Assembly (NCBI GenBank): GCA_937949965.1
Contig: CALFBF010000161.1
Coordinates: 1 to 36,779 of the forward strand
Direction: 5' to 3'
DNA: 36,779 nucleotides
Source: an uncultured Roseibacillus sp.
Lineage (GTDB): Bacteria; Verrucomicrobiota; Verrucomicrobiia; Verrucomicrobiales; Akkermansiaceae
Below are positions 30,289 through 36,476 of the stretch, piece by piece. Below the pieces are notes generated by a model that worked only from the letters and a program-made list of their open reading frames with translations, was not told where the DNA came from and did not search any database. The position numbers and the translations under genes are program-made. Numbering within the stretch: position 1 is the first letter of the stretch; every line of letters starts with the position of its first letter.

Positions 30289-31293
30289 TTAAGGCTGAGG
30301 GGGAAGGGAAAGGGCTTGCGTTGTGAGAGCGGCAAAAGCAAGGAGAGCGGCGACTCCACAGACCCACGGGTAGAAGTCGAGGCTCTGCACCGTGCTGGAG
30401 ACCCGGGCCTCCGATTTCTCTAACTTATCGATACTCGCAAAGGTTTCCTGCAAGGCCGTGAAATCTCGTGCTCGAAAAAATTCTCCTCCCGTGATTTGAG
30501 CAATCTCTTGTAACGTTTCGACATCGAACTCCTGTCGTGGAATGGCCATCACATTTCGTCCCACCCGGCCATCTTCTGTTCCGATGGCGATAGGGTAGAT
30601 CTTAATCTTGAGTTCTGCCGCTAATTCCGCCGCTTGTTCCGGGGAAAGTTTCCCTGAGTTCGAAGCTCCGTCAGTAATCAATACGATGATTTTTGATTTT
30701 GAATCCCGGGCATCAAGTCGGGTAGAAGAGGCCGCGATTGCAGACCCGATCGCTGTTCCTTGTTCCGCAATGTCATTAATCTGCACGCGGTCAATTGATT
30801 GCTGGAGCCAAGTGTGATCGAGGGTGAGAGGGCAGACGGGATAAGGTTGCCCTGAGAAAACGACTAAGCCCATTCGGTCGTTGGGGCGATTACGGATGAA
30901 GGGTTTAAGAACCAGTTTTGCGGCTTCCACTCGCGGGATGGGTCGTCGCGATTGCGGGGGCAGGAAGTCTCCAATGTTCATCGATTCTGAGAGATCGAGG
31001 GTAAGCAAAATATCGATTCCTGAGGCTTTGCGGGCAGTATAGGTTTCACGGTGTTGTGGACGGGCTAAGGCCGTGAAACAGGCCATCAAAGCTAAGGAAA
31101 AAAGAAGAAGCGAAAACCCGCCGGGCCGTAGTTTAGGCTTGGAACCTAGTGAGCCCAGAATAGAGAGCGAGGAGAAAACAAGCGACGACTTCGCACCCTC
31201 CCGCAATTGTAGGAACCAAAGCGCAGGCACTAACAAGAACCCCAAGAACCAGAGAGGGGCTGCAAAATGAAGTTCTCGCAAAAAATCAATCAT
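30289..31293 (-). CDS. batA: BatA-like VWA-domain membrane protein
   Basis: A 334-residue protein with two N-terminal membrane segments (PLWFLGFLLVPALWFL and FSLLLFSLALMACFTAL). A von Willebrand A domain follows, with metal site DLSESM, the middle Thr in EQGTAIGSAIA, and ITDGASNSG. A final membrane segment lies near residue 310. This is the BatA layout of the Bat operon. The ATG overlaps the last bases of the preceding membrane-protein gene by 8 bases, suggesting coupled translation. BatB-BatC follows. Bat proteins are linked with oxygen or envelope stress in some bacteria, but the molecular task is not settled. Confidence 0.85.
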   Translation of the reverse strand: MIDFLRELHFAAPLWFLGFLLVPALWFLQLREGAKSSLVFSSLSILGSLGSKPKLRPGGFSLLLFSLALMACFTALARPQHRETYTARKASGIDILLTLDLSESMNIGDFLPPQSRRPIPRVEAAKLVLKPFIRNRPNDRMGLVVFSGQPYPVCPLTLDHTWLQQSIDRVQINDIAEQGTAIGSAIAASSTRLDARDSKSKIIVLITDGASNSGKLSPEQAAELAAELKIKIYPIAIGTEDGRVGRNVMAIPRQEFDVETLQEIAQITGGEFFRARDFTALQETFASIDKLEKSEARVSSTVQSLDFYPWVCGVAALLAFAALTTQALSLPPQP

Positions 31294-31939
31294 CAGCTAA
31301 GAGAGCGTTTGTTTCGTTGTTAGAATGTTCGCCAGAAGCCAAGGCCTGTAGCTTCACCAAGGCTTGGTCAATCAAGCTCGTAACTCTTACGGGATCGCTA
31401 GTAGCGGGAGCGTATTGTAGTGAACCGAGTTCGTTGAGGAAGTCAACGGTTTCGCTTTTCAGGGGCTCAGAGACGTGGCGCAGACGATCCTCATCAGTGA
31501 GGAATTCTTCTCGCGTCTGATAGCGGGATATATCGGATCGAGATTGCGCGAGGTAGTGTCGCAACACGATCGAGATGCGAGTGGCGAGCTCTGCCAAAGG
31601 AGTTTCGGGATCAGAGTCTCGGAGAGCACGCAAGGCATCGCGACTTTCCTCATAAGGGCTGGTCTTCTGCCCTCCTTTTACGATCGGTTCTCGTTTGCGT
31701 AGCAGAAAGAAGAAGAGCGCTATCAGCGGGATGCAGATCGCGAGGATGACCAGTAATACCAACCACTCAGGCAGCCCCGGGAGGTGAGGGGAGGGGTCGA
31801 GTACTTCTACCGGGAGTTTGGGAGTTTCGACCGGACTTTCTCCTCCTACTAGGGGTGGGACTTGTTGCCCTGCTAGGGGCCAGATAAAAGCGGTTGTTAG
31901 AAAGAGCGCCGCCGTAGAGATTGATGACCACTTTCTCAT
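31286..31939 (-). CDS. Bat-operon membrane protein, DUF4381-like position
   Basis: A 217-residue protein with a signal peptide (cleavage after LAGQ, about residue 25) and a short Pro-rich outer segment. One membrane helix follows at about 60-82 (LVLLVILAICIPLIALFFFLL), then a cytoplasmic helical domain (LAELATRISIVLRHYLAQSR, then REEFL). This layout and its place between the DUF58 and BatA genes match the small transmembrane component found in many MoxR/Bat operons. Sequence alone does not fix the family. It overlaps DUF58 by an ATGA and BatA by 8 bases. Confidence 0.7.
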   Translation of the reverse strand: MRKWSSISTAALFLTTAFIWPLAGQQVPPLVGGESPVETPKLPVEVLDPSPHLPGLPEWLVLLVILAICIPLIALFFFLLRKREPIVKGGQKTSPYEESRDALRALRDSDPETPLAELATRISIVLRHYLAQSRSDISRYQTREEFLTDEDRLRHVSEPLKSETVDFLNELGSLQYAPATSDPVRVTSLIDQALVKLQALASGEHSNNETNALLADD

Positions 31940-32871
31940 GAGTTTTTTCGGCGAGCTCGTTGTTGGAAGAGAGTGTGCATTGCTGCGAAGGGGTCCTCGT
32001 TCGTCGCTAAGGAAGCATGATCAATATTGTAACGCTTAAAGGTCTTCAGCACCCCTTCGCGATGGCGACGGGTGAGTTTCACAAAACCCATGCGCACGTT
32101 TTCGTTAGAAGTATTCACCACTCGTTCGTGGCCGCTTTCCGGATCGATGAGAGTCACCTTGCCGACTGCAGGGAGTTCACGTTCCACCGGGTCAAAGACA
32201 CGAAGCGCTACGAGATCGTGCTTCTGGGAAAGAGTAGCCAATGATTTCGAGAAATCGGCTCCAATAAAGTCGGAGAGAAGGAAGATGAGTGATTTCTGGC
32301 GAATCGCCTGCATCATCACTCGGGTCGCCGTAGGGAAGTTGACCGCCCCGCGTGGGGCCGGTGTGGCGAGGATTTCTCGGATACAACGCAAGATGTGCTT
32401 CGTTCCTTTTGCTGGTGGCAGATAGAGGATCGGTTCATCTGCAAAGAGTAATAGGCCGACCTTATCCCCATTGTCGCGAGCAGAGAAGGCGATCAAAGCG
32501 GCAATTTCAGCGGCAAGTTCCCGCTTCGACAAGCGCACGGAACCGTAATCCATCGAGGCGGAGATATCGACCGCGATTACGGCAGAGAGTTCCCGTTCTT
32601 CCCGGAATTTACGAATAAAAGGCGTTCCTAAGCGAGCGGTCACATTCCAATCAATGAAGCGGATCTCATCGCCGTGTTGATATTCGCGGAATTCGTCGAA
32701 ATCTAAGCCCTGACCCTTGAAAGACGAATGGTAGTCTCCTGCAAAAGTCTCTTTCACCAATCGCTTAGCCCGTAGCTCCAAGCGCCGGACGCGAGCCATG
32801 ATTTCTTCGATTTCGTCTTCTTCGTTCAAGGTTTCTGCAGAGAACGATAGAAGGGGAGAAAATTGTCTCAA
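31936..32871 (-). CDS. DUF58-family protein of the Bat operon
   Basis: A cytosolic VWA-like protein of up to 311 residues. Family hallmarks: VRRLELRAKRLV, GDYHSSFKGQGLDFDEFREYQHGD, RFIDWNVTAR, KFREERELS and VDISASM. DUF58 proteins pair with MoxR AAA+ ATPases and start Bat operons. The first codon is uncertain: TTG at 32871 opens the frame, TTG at 32829 (NEEDEIEEIMARV) is equally plausible, and ATG at 32799 would be rather short. No Shine-Dalgarno site decides. The gene heads the operon, and no moxR lies upstream, where the divergent tRNA-Sec region begins. Confidence 0.88.
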   Translation of the reverse strand: MRQFSPLLSFSAETLNEEDEIEEIMARVRRLELRAKRLVKETFAGDYHSSFKGQGLDFDEFREYQHGDEIRFIDWNVTARLGTPFIRKFREERELSAVIAVDISASMDYGSVRLSKRELAAEIAALIAFSARDNGDKVGLLLFADEPILYLPPAKGTKHILRCIREILATPAPRGAVNFPTATRVMMQAIRQKSLIFLLSDFIGADFSKSLATLSQKHDLVALRVFDPVERELPAVGKVTLIDPESGHERVVNTSNENVRMGFVKLTRRHREGVLKTFKRYNIDHASLATNEDPFAAMHTLFQQRARRKNS

Positions 32872-33017
32872 GTTTTGAAGGCGTGTTCTTTTCGAAAAAA
32901 TGAGAAAAAGGCTATCTTGCAGAGACTCAAGACCTCCGGTGGCCTCGTAGGCAAGATGGACAAGAAAACTTCACTCCAAAGCTTGCATCCCTGTCACAAG
33001 AGTACCAAGTTCCTTGC

Positions 33018-33111
33018 GGAAAGTTATGCGTGCCTGGTGGCCGCCGCGGTCTTCAAAACCGTTGAAGCTTCTCACGGGGCTTGGTGGGTTCGATTCCTTC
33101 ACTTTCCGCCA
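33018..33111 (+). tRNA. selC: tRNA-Sec, anticodon TCA (UGA), long variable arm
   Basis: Delivers selenocysteine at UGA codons. Length 94 bases including CCA. Acceptor GGAAAGT (33018-33024) pairs with ACTTTCC (33101-33107), then G and CCA. The D-stem pairs GCG-GCC (with a bulged T at 33031) against GGC-CGC around a 4-base TGGT loop, the extended D-arm typical of bacterial tRNA-Sec. Anticodon stem GCGGT/ACCGT holds loop CTTCAAA, anticodon at 33053-33055. The variable arm AAGCTTC/GGGGCTT has 7 pairs and a TCAC loop. The T-arm is GTGGG/CCTTC around TTCGATT, with one T-T mismatch. Acceptor plus T-stem is 12 pairs against the usual 13. The GIY-YIG element follows at the CCA. Confidence 0.85.
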
Positions 33112-33208
33112 TCCTTCGCCAAGGCTACGGATGGCTGCGCCGTGTTGGAGAAAAGGAAAGCGCCCCTCCACAAGTAAGCTGGGAGTCGTCGAAGCCTTGG
33201 CGAAGGAT
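33111..33208. repeat. 16-base perfect inverted repeat
   Basis: ATCCTTCGCCAAGGCT at 33111-33126 is exactly reversed as AGCCTTGGCGAAGGAT at 33193-33208, with 66 bases between. The left copy begins on the last A of the tRNA-Sec CCA end. Between them, TGGAG and CTCCA can form a small inner stem. Confidence 0.85.
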
Positions 33209-33589
33209 GCCCTTCATAGCTCGAAGAGCGACGGAGGGCTTAACGCTTCTGAAGCCTTTATGTGTGCCCGAAATGAGTTTACGACGAGTAGCCAATTTCT
33301 TCCCATGTTCTACGTTTATCTCCTTCGTTCCGAAAAAGATCCGAGCCGAAGTTATATTGGCTACACCGCAGATCTTAAATCTCGCCTGAAAGCACATAAT
33401 GCCGGTCAGAACCATTCTACTCTAACCTTTAGGCCTTGGATTCTAGAAACCTACCTTGCCTTCACCAGTGAAGCCAAAGCGAGAGCCTTCGAGACTTACC
33501 TCAAAACAGGTTTCGAAAAAGCCTTCGCCTCCAAACGTCTCTGGCCCGAAGCCGAGTAAAATACGGATGCCCTTCATCGCTCGAAGAGC
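33205..33589 (+). repeat. 25-base direct repeat on both sides of the GIY-YIG gene
   Basis: Copies at 33205-33229 and 33565-33589 read GGATGCCCTTCAT, then A or C, then GCTCGAAGAGC: one mismatch in 25 bases. The second copy starts six bases after the GIY-YIG stop codon. Confidence 0.85.
33305..33559 (+). CDS. Solo GIY-YIG endonuclease (URI/YhbQ-like)
   Basis: An 84-residue single-domain nuclease. FYVYLL (2-7) is the GIY segment, SYIGYT (16-21) the YIG segment. R27 is the catalytic Arg in LKSRLKAHN and E63 the likely metal-binding Glu in RAFETYLK. The ATG at 33305 is chosen because homology starts there; the frame is open back to 33014, but that part reads through the tRNA-Sec gene and repeats. 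It resembles the short GIY-YIG proteins (COG2827 type) found in many copies in some bacteria. The repeats around it suggest it belongs to a mobile unit. No Shine-Dalgarno site is seen. Confidence 0.85.
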   Translation: MFYVYLLRSEKDPSRSYIGYTADLKSRLKAHNAGQNHSTLTFRPWILETYLAFTSEAKARAFETYLKTGFEKAFASKRLWPEAE

Positions 33590-33600
33590 AAATGTTAGTG

Positions 33601-33647
33601 GCGTTGGCATCCTGCCAACGCTTTAGAAGACTGGGCAGTGTTCCCAG
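33601..33647. repeat. Two adjacent palindromes after the GIY-YIG element
   Basis: First: arms GCGTTGGCA (33601-33609) and TGCCAACGC (33613-33621) around TCC, like the palindrome at 12734. Second: CTGGG (33631-33635) and CCCAG (33643-33647) around a 7-base loop. They stand just downstream of the sulfatase stop codon on the minus strand and could also act as its transcript end. Confidence 0.65.
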
Positions 33648-33678
33648 AGCGAGTTAAGTTACCCTAGCCCTGTACGAG

Positions 33679-35184
33679 TTAATCAATTTGCAATAGCTCC
33701 TTACTTTTTGCTTCTTTCTCCAAGCGTTCCGAGAGTTCGCGATAATATTTGAGGCGAGCTTTCTGATAGGCTCCAGCTTCGAGGAAGCGGTTGGATTGGT
33801 TGTTCTTGTTCCATTTATTCCAGAGGGCCGCGAGTTCTTTACGAGATTCTGGGGCTTCATCAACGATGTTGTTCATCTCGGTGGGATCTTCCTTGAGGTT
33901 GAAAAGCATGGGGGTTTTACCAATTTCGTTTCTGGGTTGGAGATATTTCATCTCGGGAGTTCGCACTGCCCAGTTTTTGCCATCATTCATTCTCCAGAAG
34001 AGAGCATGATGTGGAGCGCCTGTGTTATCTCCGGTAACGAATGGGATAAGGTCAACCCCGTCCATCTGCGGAGCAGAGGCGTCAGCATCTCCTTGGGCTA
34101 TGAAAGTTGCCGCGATATCGATGGCTGAGATCGGGAATTGATAGCGTGTTCCTGCTGGAATTTTCTTTGGCCAATGGGCGATGAAGGGGACATGGCATCC
34201 ACCCTCAAGCATACTACCTTTCCCCCCGCGAAAGGGTCCGCTGTCAGCCCAGTCTTGTCCTTTACGACTTCTGGGCTGGCCATGTGGGCGAGCTTTGTCA
34301 ACTACTCCACCATTGTCCGAAAGGAAGAAGATAAGGGTGTTATCGAGTTTGCCGCTTTTCTCAAGAGCTTCGATAACCATCCCAATTCCTTGGTCCATGG
34401 CATCAATCATAGCGGCGTAGATTTGGCGTCGGGGATGCTCGATTGAGCTATACTTTTCGATCAGTTCTTTGGGTGCTTCGAGAGGTGCGTGGGGTGCATT
34501 ATAAGCGAGGTAAAGGCAGAAAGGTTCTTTTCCCGAGGAGACGAATTTAGCCGCATCTCTGCTAAGAGCGGTTGTGAGATATTCGTCGAAGGTGGCGCTT
34601 TGGTCGTTGCGCGTTAGCGGCCAATAACTTCCCTCATTAGCCGAGTAATTCAAGGTGGTCTCGTTGAGGTCAAGGGGAGTGAGGGTCGAGACTCTCTCGG
34701 GCCAATAGCTATGTCCACCAGAGAGGAAACCGTAGAAGTAGTCAAAGCCACGGTTGTTAGGGTGAAAGACGTGGGAACCTCCGAGATGCCATTTCCCGAC
34801 GATGCCGGTGCGATATCCTGCTGATTTCAAACGCTCGGCAAAGGTCTTCTCGGAGAGGGGGAGACCGTTGTGTCGATCGAAGAAGCTGTTAGTGGTGTTA
34901 GATTCGAAACCGAACCGCGCTTGGTAACGCCCTGTCATCAAGCCTGCACGTGAGGGACCGCAAAAGGGGTGAGTGACGTAACCGTTTTCAAAGATAACGC
35001 CACCTTGAGCTAAGGAATCGAGAACAGGCGTTTGAATTTCCTCAGACCCGGTGAATCCAACATCTCCATAGCCTAAGTCATCAGCGAGAATGACGATTAG
35101 ATTGGGTTTTTCTGGAGTGTCTTGAGCGGTCACTGAAGTCAGGCTTAAGAGGAAGACTGAGAGCGCGTGTTTGAGGAAATTCAT
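33679..35184 (-). CDS. Secreted formylglycine-type sulfatase
   Basis: A 501-residue arylsulfatase-family enzyme that removes sulfate esters, probably from algal or animal polysaccharides. The signal peptide ends at about residue 20 (SVTA). Metal-binding D35-D36 lie in LADDLGYGD. The modification motif C75-G-P-S-R79 is the Cys-type site converted to formylglycine by an oxidising maturase. KWHLGG and SDNGG complete the active-site set. No anaerobic maturase or glycoside hydrolase lies nearby. The gene is alone on its strand between terminator-like palindromes (33601) and the carA terminator. The sulfated substrate cannot be told. Confidence 0.93.
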   Translation of the reverse strand: MNFLKHALSVFLLSLTSVTAQDTPEKPNLIVILADDLGYGDVGFTGSEEIQTPVLDSLAQGGVIFENGYVTHPFCGPSRAGLMTGRYQARFGFESNTTNSFFDRHNGLPLSEKTFAERLKSAGYRTGIVGKWHLGGSHVFHPNNRGFDYFYGFLSGGHSYWPERVSTLTPLDLNETTLNYSANEGSYWPLTRNDQSATFDEYLTTALSRDAAKFVSSGKEPFCLYLAYNAPHAPLEAPKELIEKYSSIEHPRRQIYAAMIDAMDQGIGMVIEALEKSGKLDNTLIFFLSDNGGVVDKARPHGQPRSRKGQDWADSGPFRGGKGSMLEGGCHVPFIAHWPKKIPAGTRYQFPISAIDIAATFIAQGDADASAPQMDGVDLIPFVTGDNTGAPHHALFWRMNDGKNWAVRTPEMKYLQPRNEIGKTPMLFNLKEDPTEMNNIVDEAPESRKELAALWNKWNKNNQSNRFLEAGAYQKARLKYYRELSERLEKEAKSKELLQID

Positions 35185-35249
35185 AGAGAAGAGGGCATTG
35201 GTTTTTTGGATAGGGGTGGCTACGTTGAAGCGGGATTGAATCTTTATTC

Positions 35250-35283
35250 AAAAATAAAAAAGACGCCCTTTTGAAGCGTCTTT
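35250..35283 (-). terminator. Intrinsic terminator of carA
   Basis: On the minus strand AAAGACGC (from 35283) pairs with GCGTCTTT (to 35259) around a 9-base loop and runs into TTTATTTTT. It lies about 48 bases after the carA stop codon and separates carA from the sulfatase gene. Confidence 0.85.
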
Positions 35284-35330
35284 GAATGAAGTTTTGATGA
35301 GAGGTTAGCTCTGAATTTAGCTGAGTTCTT

Positions 35331-36476
35331 CTATCTGATTGCCTCAATAAGATCGACGAAGTCGCCGAAGAAGTTCTTGGCGTCGTTTGGTCCCGGAGCC
35401 GCTTCAGGGTGGTGCTGAACGGAGAAAATTGGGTCCTTTGTAGAGCGAGTTCCTTCCACTGTCTGGTCGTTCAGATTCACATGGGTGACTTCGGTGTCAG
35501 GTGGGAGGTTCTCACCGTCAGTTGCGAAGCCGTGGTTTTGAGCGGTGATGTCAACCTTACCACTACGCAGGTCTTTGACTGGTTGGTTCCCGCCTCGGTG
35601 ACCGAACTTGAGTTTGTAAGTCTTGCCGCCACAAGCGTGGGTTAAGAGCTGGTGTCCGAGGCAAATCCCGAAGAGGGGAGTACGGCCGATAAGCTCCCTC
35701 ACCTCGGCATGAACGTAGTCAAGAGAGGCCGGATCACCTGGTCCGTTAGAGAGGAAAACTCCGTCGGGCTTCATCGCGAGGACATCTTTGGCAGAGGTGG
35801 TCGCAGGCACGACAGTGACCTTGAAGCCAGCTTGGCGCAGGCAACGCAAAATGTTGCGCTTTATCCCGAAATCGTAGGCCACGATTTCATATTTCGTGTC
35901 GGGTAGCTCGAGGTAGTTGCCGTCAATTTCTTGAGCGACGGAAGGGATGGTCCAGGGACGGGATTCACCTTCCCAGAGATAGCTTTTCTTAGCGGTGACT
36001 TCTTTCACGAAATCAGCCCCAAGCATAGAGTCGGATTCTTGTGCGGTCTTGATGGCTTCCGCTTCGCTTAATTCGGTGGTGAGACAGGAGCGCATCGCCC
36101 CAGCCGAACGAAGGTGCTTGGTGAGGGCGCGGGTATCAATGTCGTCGATTCCGAGTACCTTGGCTTCAGATAAATAATCGCTGAGACTCTGCTGTGAACG
36201 CCAGCTGGAAGGGATGTCGCAAAGCTCACCCACCACGAAACCGCGAACTTGGACCTGGTCTGATTCCGCGTCTTCGGGATTGATCCCGTAGTTCCCAATT
36301 TGGGGATAAGTCATCGTGACGATCTGACCTCGGTAGGACGGATCGGTCAGAATCTCCTGATAGCCAGTCATGGAAGTATTGAAGCAGACTTCGCCGGTTG
36401 CTGTTCCTTCGTGACCAAAGGCGGTACCCTGGAAAGTCCGCCCATCCTCTAGTGCCAAAAGTGCTTTTTTCCGCAT
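35331..36476 (-). CDS. carA: Carbamoyl-phosphate synthase small (glutaminase) subunit
   Basis: Hydrolyses glutamine and passes ammonia to CarB for carbamoyl phosphate, the precursor of pyrimidines and arginine. The 381 residues match the family. The N-terminal CPSase domain has [19 protein letters not shown] (30-48). The class-I glutaminase domain has LFGICLGHQ with nucleophile C272, and [10 protein letters not shown] with H356 and E358. [11 protein letters not shown] (201-211) is typical of CarA. carB is not adjacent; a terminator ends the gene. The ATG at 36476 ([17 protein letters not shown]) fits the family start. tRNA-Met lies divergently 228 bases away. Confidence 0.96.

Follow-up and report, generated by a model that had tools for sequence, protein, structure and literature searches.

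A GIY-YIG nuclease gene and the hairpins in front of it lie directly behind the selenocysteine tRNA of an uncultured Roseibacillus sp., and together they probably constitute a minimal mobile element belonging to a widespread family at tRNA and tmRNA 3′ ends, putatively moved by its own GIY-YIG nuclease. The window, i.e., the whole stretch of 36,779 nucleotides that was analysed, is part of a host assembly of 2.73 Mb in 166 contigs. The target site and the repeated movement of the family are well supported; the observations comprise the position behind tRNAs, the covariation of a hairpin that includes the CCA, selection on the gene, host switching, tandem units, gene-less hairpins, and pairs of occupied and empty sites. 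The role of the nuclease and the chemistry of the movement are what we infer.

The host tRNA is a tRNA-Sec at 33018..33111 on the forward strand, as judged by ARAGORN and by the Rfam model RF01852 (63.9 bits, with a gathering score of 47), and is likely in use, since the same genome carries a selB match above the cut-off. Its encoded CCA (33109-33111, forward strand, ARAGORN) is the 5′ side of a 26-nt hairpin at 33109..33134 (forward strand), CCATCC-TTCGCCAAGGCTAC-GGATGG, which reads in full CCATCCTTCGCCAAGGCTACGGATGG, includes all of the CCA, and has a covarying stem in relatives. The repeat search features in addition a longer inverted repeat with its left arm at 33110..33129 and its right arm at 33190..33209 (both on the forward strand, 20 nt, 95% complementary, the first 17 bases perfect). 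The preliminary description had reported this repeat as 16 perfect bases; it is real, but extends further and begins one base earlier. A second left-end palindrome, GCCCTTC...GGAGGGC, follows at 33209..33239 (forward strand), and a similar motif precedes the gene in several relatives, as seen by eye and without a count. The DNA fold of 33100-33260 has a z of −2.7 against shuffled sequences. The nuclease gene occupies 33305..33559 on the forward strand, ends in a TAA stop codon at 33557-33559, and encodes 84 residues that match the Pfam GIY-YIG family with an E value of 3e-14—bearing out the solo 84-residue GIY-YIG gene described earlier—and is the sole recognised gene inside the unit. At 33565..33589 (forward strand), 5 nt past the stop codon, the repeat search finds a 25-nt direct repeat of 33205-33229 with one mismatch, best described as a partial second copy of the left end. 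The proposed mobile unit runs from the first base past the CCA to the stop codon (33112..33559, forward strand) on the evidence of homology ends and tandem junctions; its left boundary is set by the tRNA homology stopping at CCA and its right boundary by left-end copies of relatives that abut the stop codon. A unit starting on the CCA of tRNA-Sec, as first proposed, stands: the hairpin begins at the CCA, with palindrome, gene, and partial repeat downstream. The recurrence of this layout in many relatives is a stronger support for it than chance estimates within the window.

The profile matches of five neighbour proteins (30289-36476) are to VWA, DUF4381 (a weak match under the cut-off), DUF58, sulfatase, and the small chain of carbamoyl-phosphate synthase. 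None of the five gives a profile match to an integrase or transposase, in line with the absence claimed from the sequence. The GIY-YIG gene occurs in one copy in this genome. The window palindrome has 6 matches there with up to three mismatches, versus 3 for the control; the two best other matches, on contigs C46 and C60 (L003 and L004), are CCTTCGCCAAGGCT-like palindromes, and no tRNA was found within the 3 kb examined around them.

Relatives were drawn from three sources: 58 related genomes, 12 of which have a match at E 1e-5; 84,980 species genomes, which yielded 21 loci; and 387 genomes of the phylum, 130 of them with a match at E 1e-15. From the latter, 60 regions were fetched from the top of the match list, several near contig ends being left out. 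The hosts found in the 84,980-genome search include Alphaproteobacteria, Rickettsiales, Verrucomicrobia, Kiritimatiellales, Bryobacterales, Babeliales, and Saccharibacteria. At E 1e-15, the profile matches 116 distinct places, of which 106 have more than 500 nt of upstream DNA and 10 were set aside. At 88 of these 106 places, the 3′ end of a tRNA or tmRNA lies at most 500 nt upstream on the same strand. The corresponding control positions, counted over 117 loci with one place entered twice (L055 = L077), give 1 upstream on the opposite strand, 2 downstream on the same strand, and 0 downstream on the opposite strand. The 88 places carry 27 host labels, among them Ala, Ser, Pro, Val, Leu, Gly, Tyr, Gln, Thr, Met, Glu, Arg, Phe, Sec, and tmRNA. 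The proposal that tRNA 3′ ends serve as the site is thereby supported, and the tRNA link is a trait of the family and not a peculiarity of the window.

In eight of the 18 misses (L011, L035, L045, L052, L076, L081, L093, and L096), the hairpin is immediately preceded by a tRNA-like tail with CCA at its end. The other ten (L013, L014, L039, L040, L041, L042, L060, L100, L113, and L129) are without tRNA or tail and are mostly distant members; at L039, another copy of the gene lies 121 nt downstream of a tRNA-Ala. A search of the class of a Parvibaculaceae genome matched 28 of 289 genomes. Of 33 places in that class, 30 were fetched, 27 of them new, and two (L199 and L209) were set aside because of too little upstream DNA. 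An upstream tRNA is present at 21 of the 25 remaining alphaproteobacterial loci, adding the labels His, Lys, and Asp, and in all 4 misses there is a tRNA-like tail with CCGCCA at its end. Carriage by phages or plasmids was considered and rejected: tblastn gave no match in the phage collection with the L026 protein as query, and none in the plasmid collection with the window protein; IMG/VR holds matches on two contigs only. One of these two, the family member L190, lies on a contig classed as viral and has a tRNA-Ser-like tail before its hairpin. The 0.6-Mb Saccharibacteria genome G443 carries six weaker GIY-YIG homologues (L183 and L185-L189), none behind a tRNA; only L175 is so placed. L018 (G033) and L022 (G035) each hold a GIY-YIG gene of more distant kinship, which begins 12–13 nt behind tRNA-Met; at L018, 34 nt of the tRNA 3′ end and of the beginning of the unit recur past the gene, behind a hairpin. 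These two loci are perhaps a second tRNA-end type that lacks the CCA hairpin.

The left end of the family is defined by the CCA hairpin. An encoded CCA is present in 88 of 89 elements, and in 79 of the 89 it is followed by two variable bases, xy, and a sequence close to CTTCGC. These 79 constitute the covariation set; the one without CCA and the nine without the motif were dropped, and the duplicate L077 is still included. The stem pairs CCA-xyC with G-y′x′-TGG, and the exact partner is found in 49 of the 79 elements, versus 12 of 1185 tests with other xy; the shorter partner G-y′x′-TG is found in 68 of 79, versus 72 of 1185 control tests. Since eleven different xy occur among the 79 elements, the pairing survives base changes in either strand of the stem, with CCA constant. 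Four elements (L120, L123, L124, and L131) have a terminator-like stem and a T run within the loop of the CCA hairpin, directly behind the tRNA, as though the terminator of the tRNA had been incorporated by the element.

The protein is typically 80–85 residues long in the family. PF01541 matches 18 of 18 aligned members, and Y17, G19, R27, H31, N32, and E63 are invariant in these 18; the GIY-YIG superfamily is marked by conserved Tyr, Gly, Arg, His/Asn, and Glu residues with a catalytic role. The gene is under purifying selection in the relatives, with a median dN/dS of 0.089 over 80 pairs and values of at most 0.29 in 18 independent pairs; broken GIY-YIG genes also exist among them. The structure model has a pLDDT of 87 and finds SLX1 as its nearest fold with a TM-score of 0.75 over the query, and UPF0213 and SLX1 are the nearest solved structures by sequence. 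SLX1 is a structure-specific nuclease cutting branched DNA, per the titles of the matched structures, and this likeness would fit a hairpin or cruciform as substrate.

The right end is less uniform. From CCA to stop codon, the elements have a median length of 381 nt and a range of 257–642 nt. The element's own left end recurs past the gene in 15 of 81 elements when the score is required to lie at least 5 above the best of 30 shuffles, and in 19 of 81 when any score above the best shuffle is counted. The copy begins at most 5 nt from the stop codon in 12 of the 15, the window included. At L090, the downstream DNA matches the left end of another element better than its own; at L112, the unit is repeated, with a third, partial unit; and at L110, a 16-nt tRNA-Pro end lies between two units. 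Among the pairs listed, the homology of close relatives often ends about 5 nt or less from the last aligned codon. The right boundary of the unit is placed at or near the stop codon from tandem junctions and from homology ends among these listed pairs. The 25-bp repeat of the window was considered as a target-site duplication and rejected, the matching repeat of other elements being a left-end copy at the stop codon. Since the left-end copies of relatives start at the stop codon, the window repeat is a partial second left end; what had been described as a 25-base direct repeat framing the gene is present with its one mismatch, but marks a partial tandem copy and not the boundary of the element.

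A Parvibaculum type extends about 180 nt further, and its end consists of a palindrome and a decayed tRNA tail of 19 nt. At L035, such a right end with the tail AATCCCACCCTCTCCGCCA precedes the unit in a tandem-like manner. Tail copies starting in the T loop (TTCG|AATCCC) are also present at L020 and L132 and, one base shorter, at L080, and the displaced unit L195 has one at its left. Right-hand copies of the last 12–19 nt of the tRNA match at 19/19 positions in L020, 18/18 in L080, 16/16 in L110, and 17/18 in L132. When ranked against other tRNAs, the element's own tRNA tail is in the best 5% at the right end in 10 of 85 elements, with about 4 expected. A duplication of the tRNA end at the right as a general rule was accordingly rejected, being weak overall by rank and clear in a few elements. 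In the window unit, no right-hand copy of the tRNA tail was seen.

Switches of the host tRNA are reflected in the protein tree. On a tree of 115 proteins, built from 79 columns and with 51 of 111 inner branches open, the host label changes 43 times (minimum 14; shuffled mean 60.0; 0 of 200 shuffles as low), so that hosts are clustered by related tRNAs yet often switched; the tmRNA and Val labels are not clustered. L030 and L031 lie behind different tRNAs with 91% DNA identity, and L008 and L019 do so within one genome with 86%. Occupied and empty states of one site are found in two genera. In genus g43, tRNA-Leu(cag) is occupied in G209 and empty in G129 with both flanks in common, and the distance from CCA to the shared downstream DNA is 435 nt versus 78 nt; the empty site has a terminator-like stem right behind the CCA. 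In genus g48, tRNA-Val(gac) is occupied in G145 and empty in G428, the tRNA and the downstream gene being common and the upstream flank different, with intervals of 375 nt versus 87 nt. Hairpin-only states of these two sites occur in G429 and G733, and a profile search of the fetched g43 and g48 loci finds no gene outside the two occupied ones. Some sites look vertically inherited, e.g., tRNA-Leu(gag) in genus g43.

In three genomes of the window's own genus, the tRNA-Sec is 91–95% alike, the homology ends at CCA, and no gene follows. Their use as strict empty sites was rejected because the loci are not syntenic; they document no more than a tRNA-Sec that lacks the unit. The mobility supposed in the preliminary description is therefore supported—the gene has one copy in its host genome, yet relatives sit at many tRNAs, with occupied and empty sites in two genera—and the unit is neither a single occurrence nor a fixed feature of one locus, given the many tRNA hosts and the three tRNA-Sec genes of the same genus without it.

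Hairpins are also found without the gene. A CCACCA-hairpin pattern is present in 74 of 374 genomes at 113 places, versus 16 for the reversed pattern. In a sample of 30 pattern loci, 13 lie beside a tRNA or tmRNA that has no gene behind it, 6 beside one that has it, and 11 have no recognised tRNA; several of the latter are chance matches. The CCA hairpins L221 (G401) and L220 (G318) lie at tRNAs, and neither genome is listed with a GIY-YIG match in the search of the phylum; G401 has four hairpin-pattern matches. The hairpins may thus move or persist without a GIY-YIG gene.

Three other explanations have to be weighed. Since tRNA 3′ ends are classic integrase sites, the units could be non-autonomous passengers inserted in trans by the tyrosine integrases of other elements, with the GIY-YIG protein as cargo or helper. 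The right-hand tRNA copies in L020, L080, L110, and L132 resemble attL/attR, the tandem arrays resemble accretion at att sites, and the GIY-YIG protein of Tsy transposons accompanies a tyrosine recombinase and is non-essential, according to PMC10293859. However, the window unit has no adjoining integrase, the nuclease is the one recurrent gene and is under purifying selection, a right-hand tRNA copy is absent in most elements, and the hairpin includes the CCA and covaries; we consider such passengers unlikely. Somewhat less likely again is that the mobile unit is the CCA hairpin itself, travelling as single-stranded DNA, with the GIY-YIG protein in a RAYT-like role and the gene-bearing copies as the autonomous ones. 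The 13 of 30 sampled hairpins that lie at tRNAs without a gene would agree with this REP-like behaviour, as would several near-identical hairpins per genome (113 versus 16 control places in 374 genomes) and the occurrence, within one genus, of a gene-bearing, a hairpin-only, and an empty form of one tRNA locus; yet solo hairpins may be decayed elements, and some genomes with solo hairpins have no listed GIY-YIG match.

The unit could also be a domesticated trailer, with the hairpin serving maturation or termination at the tRNA 3′ end and the nuclease being a processing enzyme of the host. The terminator-like stems and T runs in the hairpin loops of L120, L123, L124, and L131, the CCA that would pair within the trailer RNA, and sites of vertical appearance, e.g., the tRNA-Leu(gag) of genus g43, are what such a role would leave. 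Against them stand the patchy presence in 130 of 387 and 28 of 289 genomes, the host tRNA switches, the displaced copies away from tRNAs, and the broken genes, which make domestication very improbable.

For a mobile element putatively moved by its own nuclease, the following course can be proposed. The unit consists of the CCA hairpin, often a second hairpin, and a GIY-YIG gene of 80–85 codons, with its end at or near the stop codon. It is inserted between the tRNA and its former downstream DNA, so that the tRNA stays whole; in the 3′ trailer it would be harmless to the tRNA and probably read through from the tRNA promoter. The nuclease most likely cuts the DNA of the tRNA end, or the hairpin formed by CCA and left end. 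By repair or strand transfer, with pairing over the final 12–20 nt of the tRNA, the unit would then be copied behind another tRNA. Such cutting and joining would lead to a fixed left end, a preference for a tRNA family with switches, tandem units, and short tails on displaced copies. Whether the family goes further than this we regard as evenly balanced: an autonomous element of less than 0.65 kb with one enzyme of about 80 residues, lacking its own recombinase, transposase, or reverse transcriptase, which recognises the CCA of tRNAs and tmRNA, builds its hairpin from that CCA, and moves by an undescribed mode of transposition, possibly by way of trailer RNA or single-stranded DNA, with the gene-less hairpins as non-autonomous forms.

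Several known systems share part of this layout. REP/RAYT systems (REPtrons) feature small palindromes, a single adjoining gene, gene-less palindromes elsewhere, and a GTAG tag at the repeat end, as PMC3733652 describes them. Palindromes beside a gene and gene-less copies elsewhere are common to both; unlike REPtrons, the tRNA-end elements sit at the CCA of tRNAs and tmRNA, with the CCA as part of the stem, and their enzyme is of the GIY-YIG type and not an HUH tyrosine transposase. In the window protein and the 18 aligned members, only GIY-YIG-type domains match, and no HUH transposase is among the matches. Integrative elements that use tRNA genes through a tyrosine integrase resemble the family in their insertion behind a whole tRNA, their tandems, and the few distal tail repeats. 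However, the window unit is without an adjoining integrase, and the tRNA-end elements measure about 0.26–0.64 kb, with no distal tRNA copy detected in most of them. Homing endonucleases of the GIY-YIG type, which are free-standing or lie in group I introns and home by double-strand cleavage of the empty site, share the catalytic domain and a selfish-looking spread, whereas the tRNA-end elements lie at the end of a gene and not inside it, at many nonallelic tRNA genes and at tmRNA, and with a covarying hairpin; the insertion does not disrupt a site inside a gene or intron, the tRNA homology ending at CCA with the tRNA whole, though a site spanning the CCA and the flank may be disrupted. SLX1 and UPF0213 are the nearest solved relatives by sequence and fold, but SLX1 is a host repair nuclease. 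SLX1 chains are longer than the tRNA-end nuclease and have further domains.

Dictyostelium retrotransposons use tRNA genes as safe landing sites, as stated in PMC5006619; differing from the tRNA-end elements, they are retrotransposons and are inserted at some distance from the tRNA. Tsy transposons likewise hold a GIY-YIG nuclease within a site-specific mobile element, which moves by tyrosine recombinases into comM, as PMC10293859 describes. No description of tRNA-end GIY-YIG elements was found in open PMC papers. No known class fits all tested defining features—no integrase, no HUH transposase, and insertion at a gene end—and the enzyme family is a known one.

If this reading is true, these units would be among the smallest self-contained mobile elements, and the CCA end common to tRNAs and tmRNA would be a new solution to the problem of a safe site for selfish DNA. 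Many small GIY-YIG genes known by domain annotation alone would gain a function, hairpins found downstream of tRNA genes in several phyla would be explained, and a compact nuclease whose target is natural and conserved would become available.
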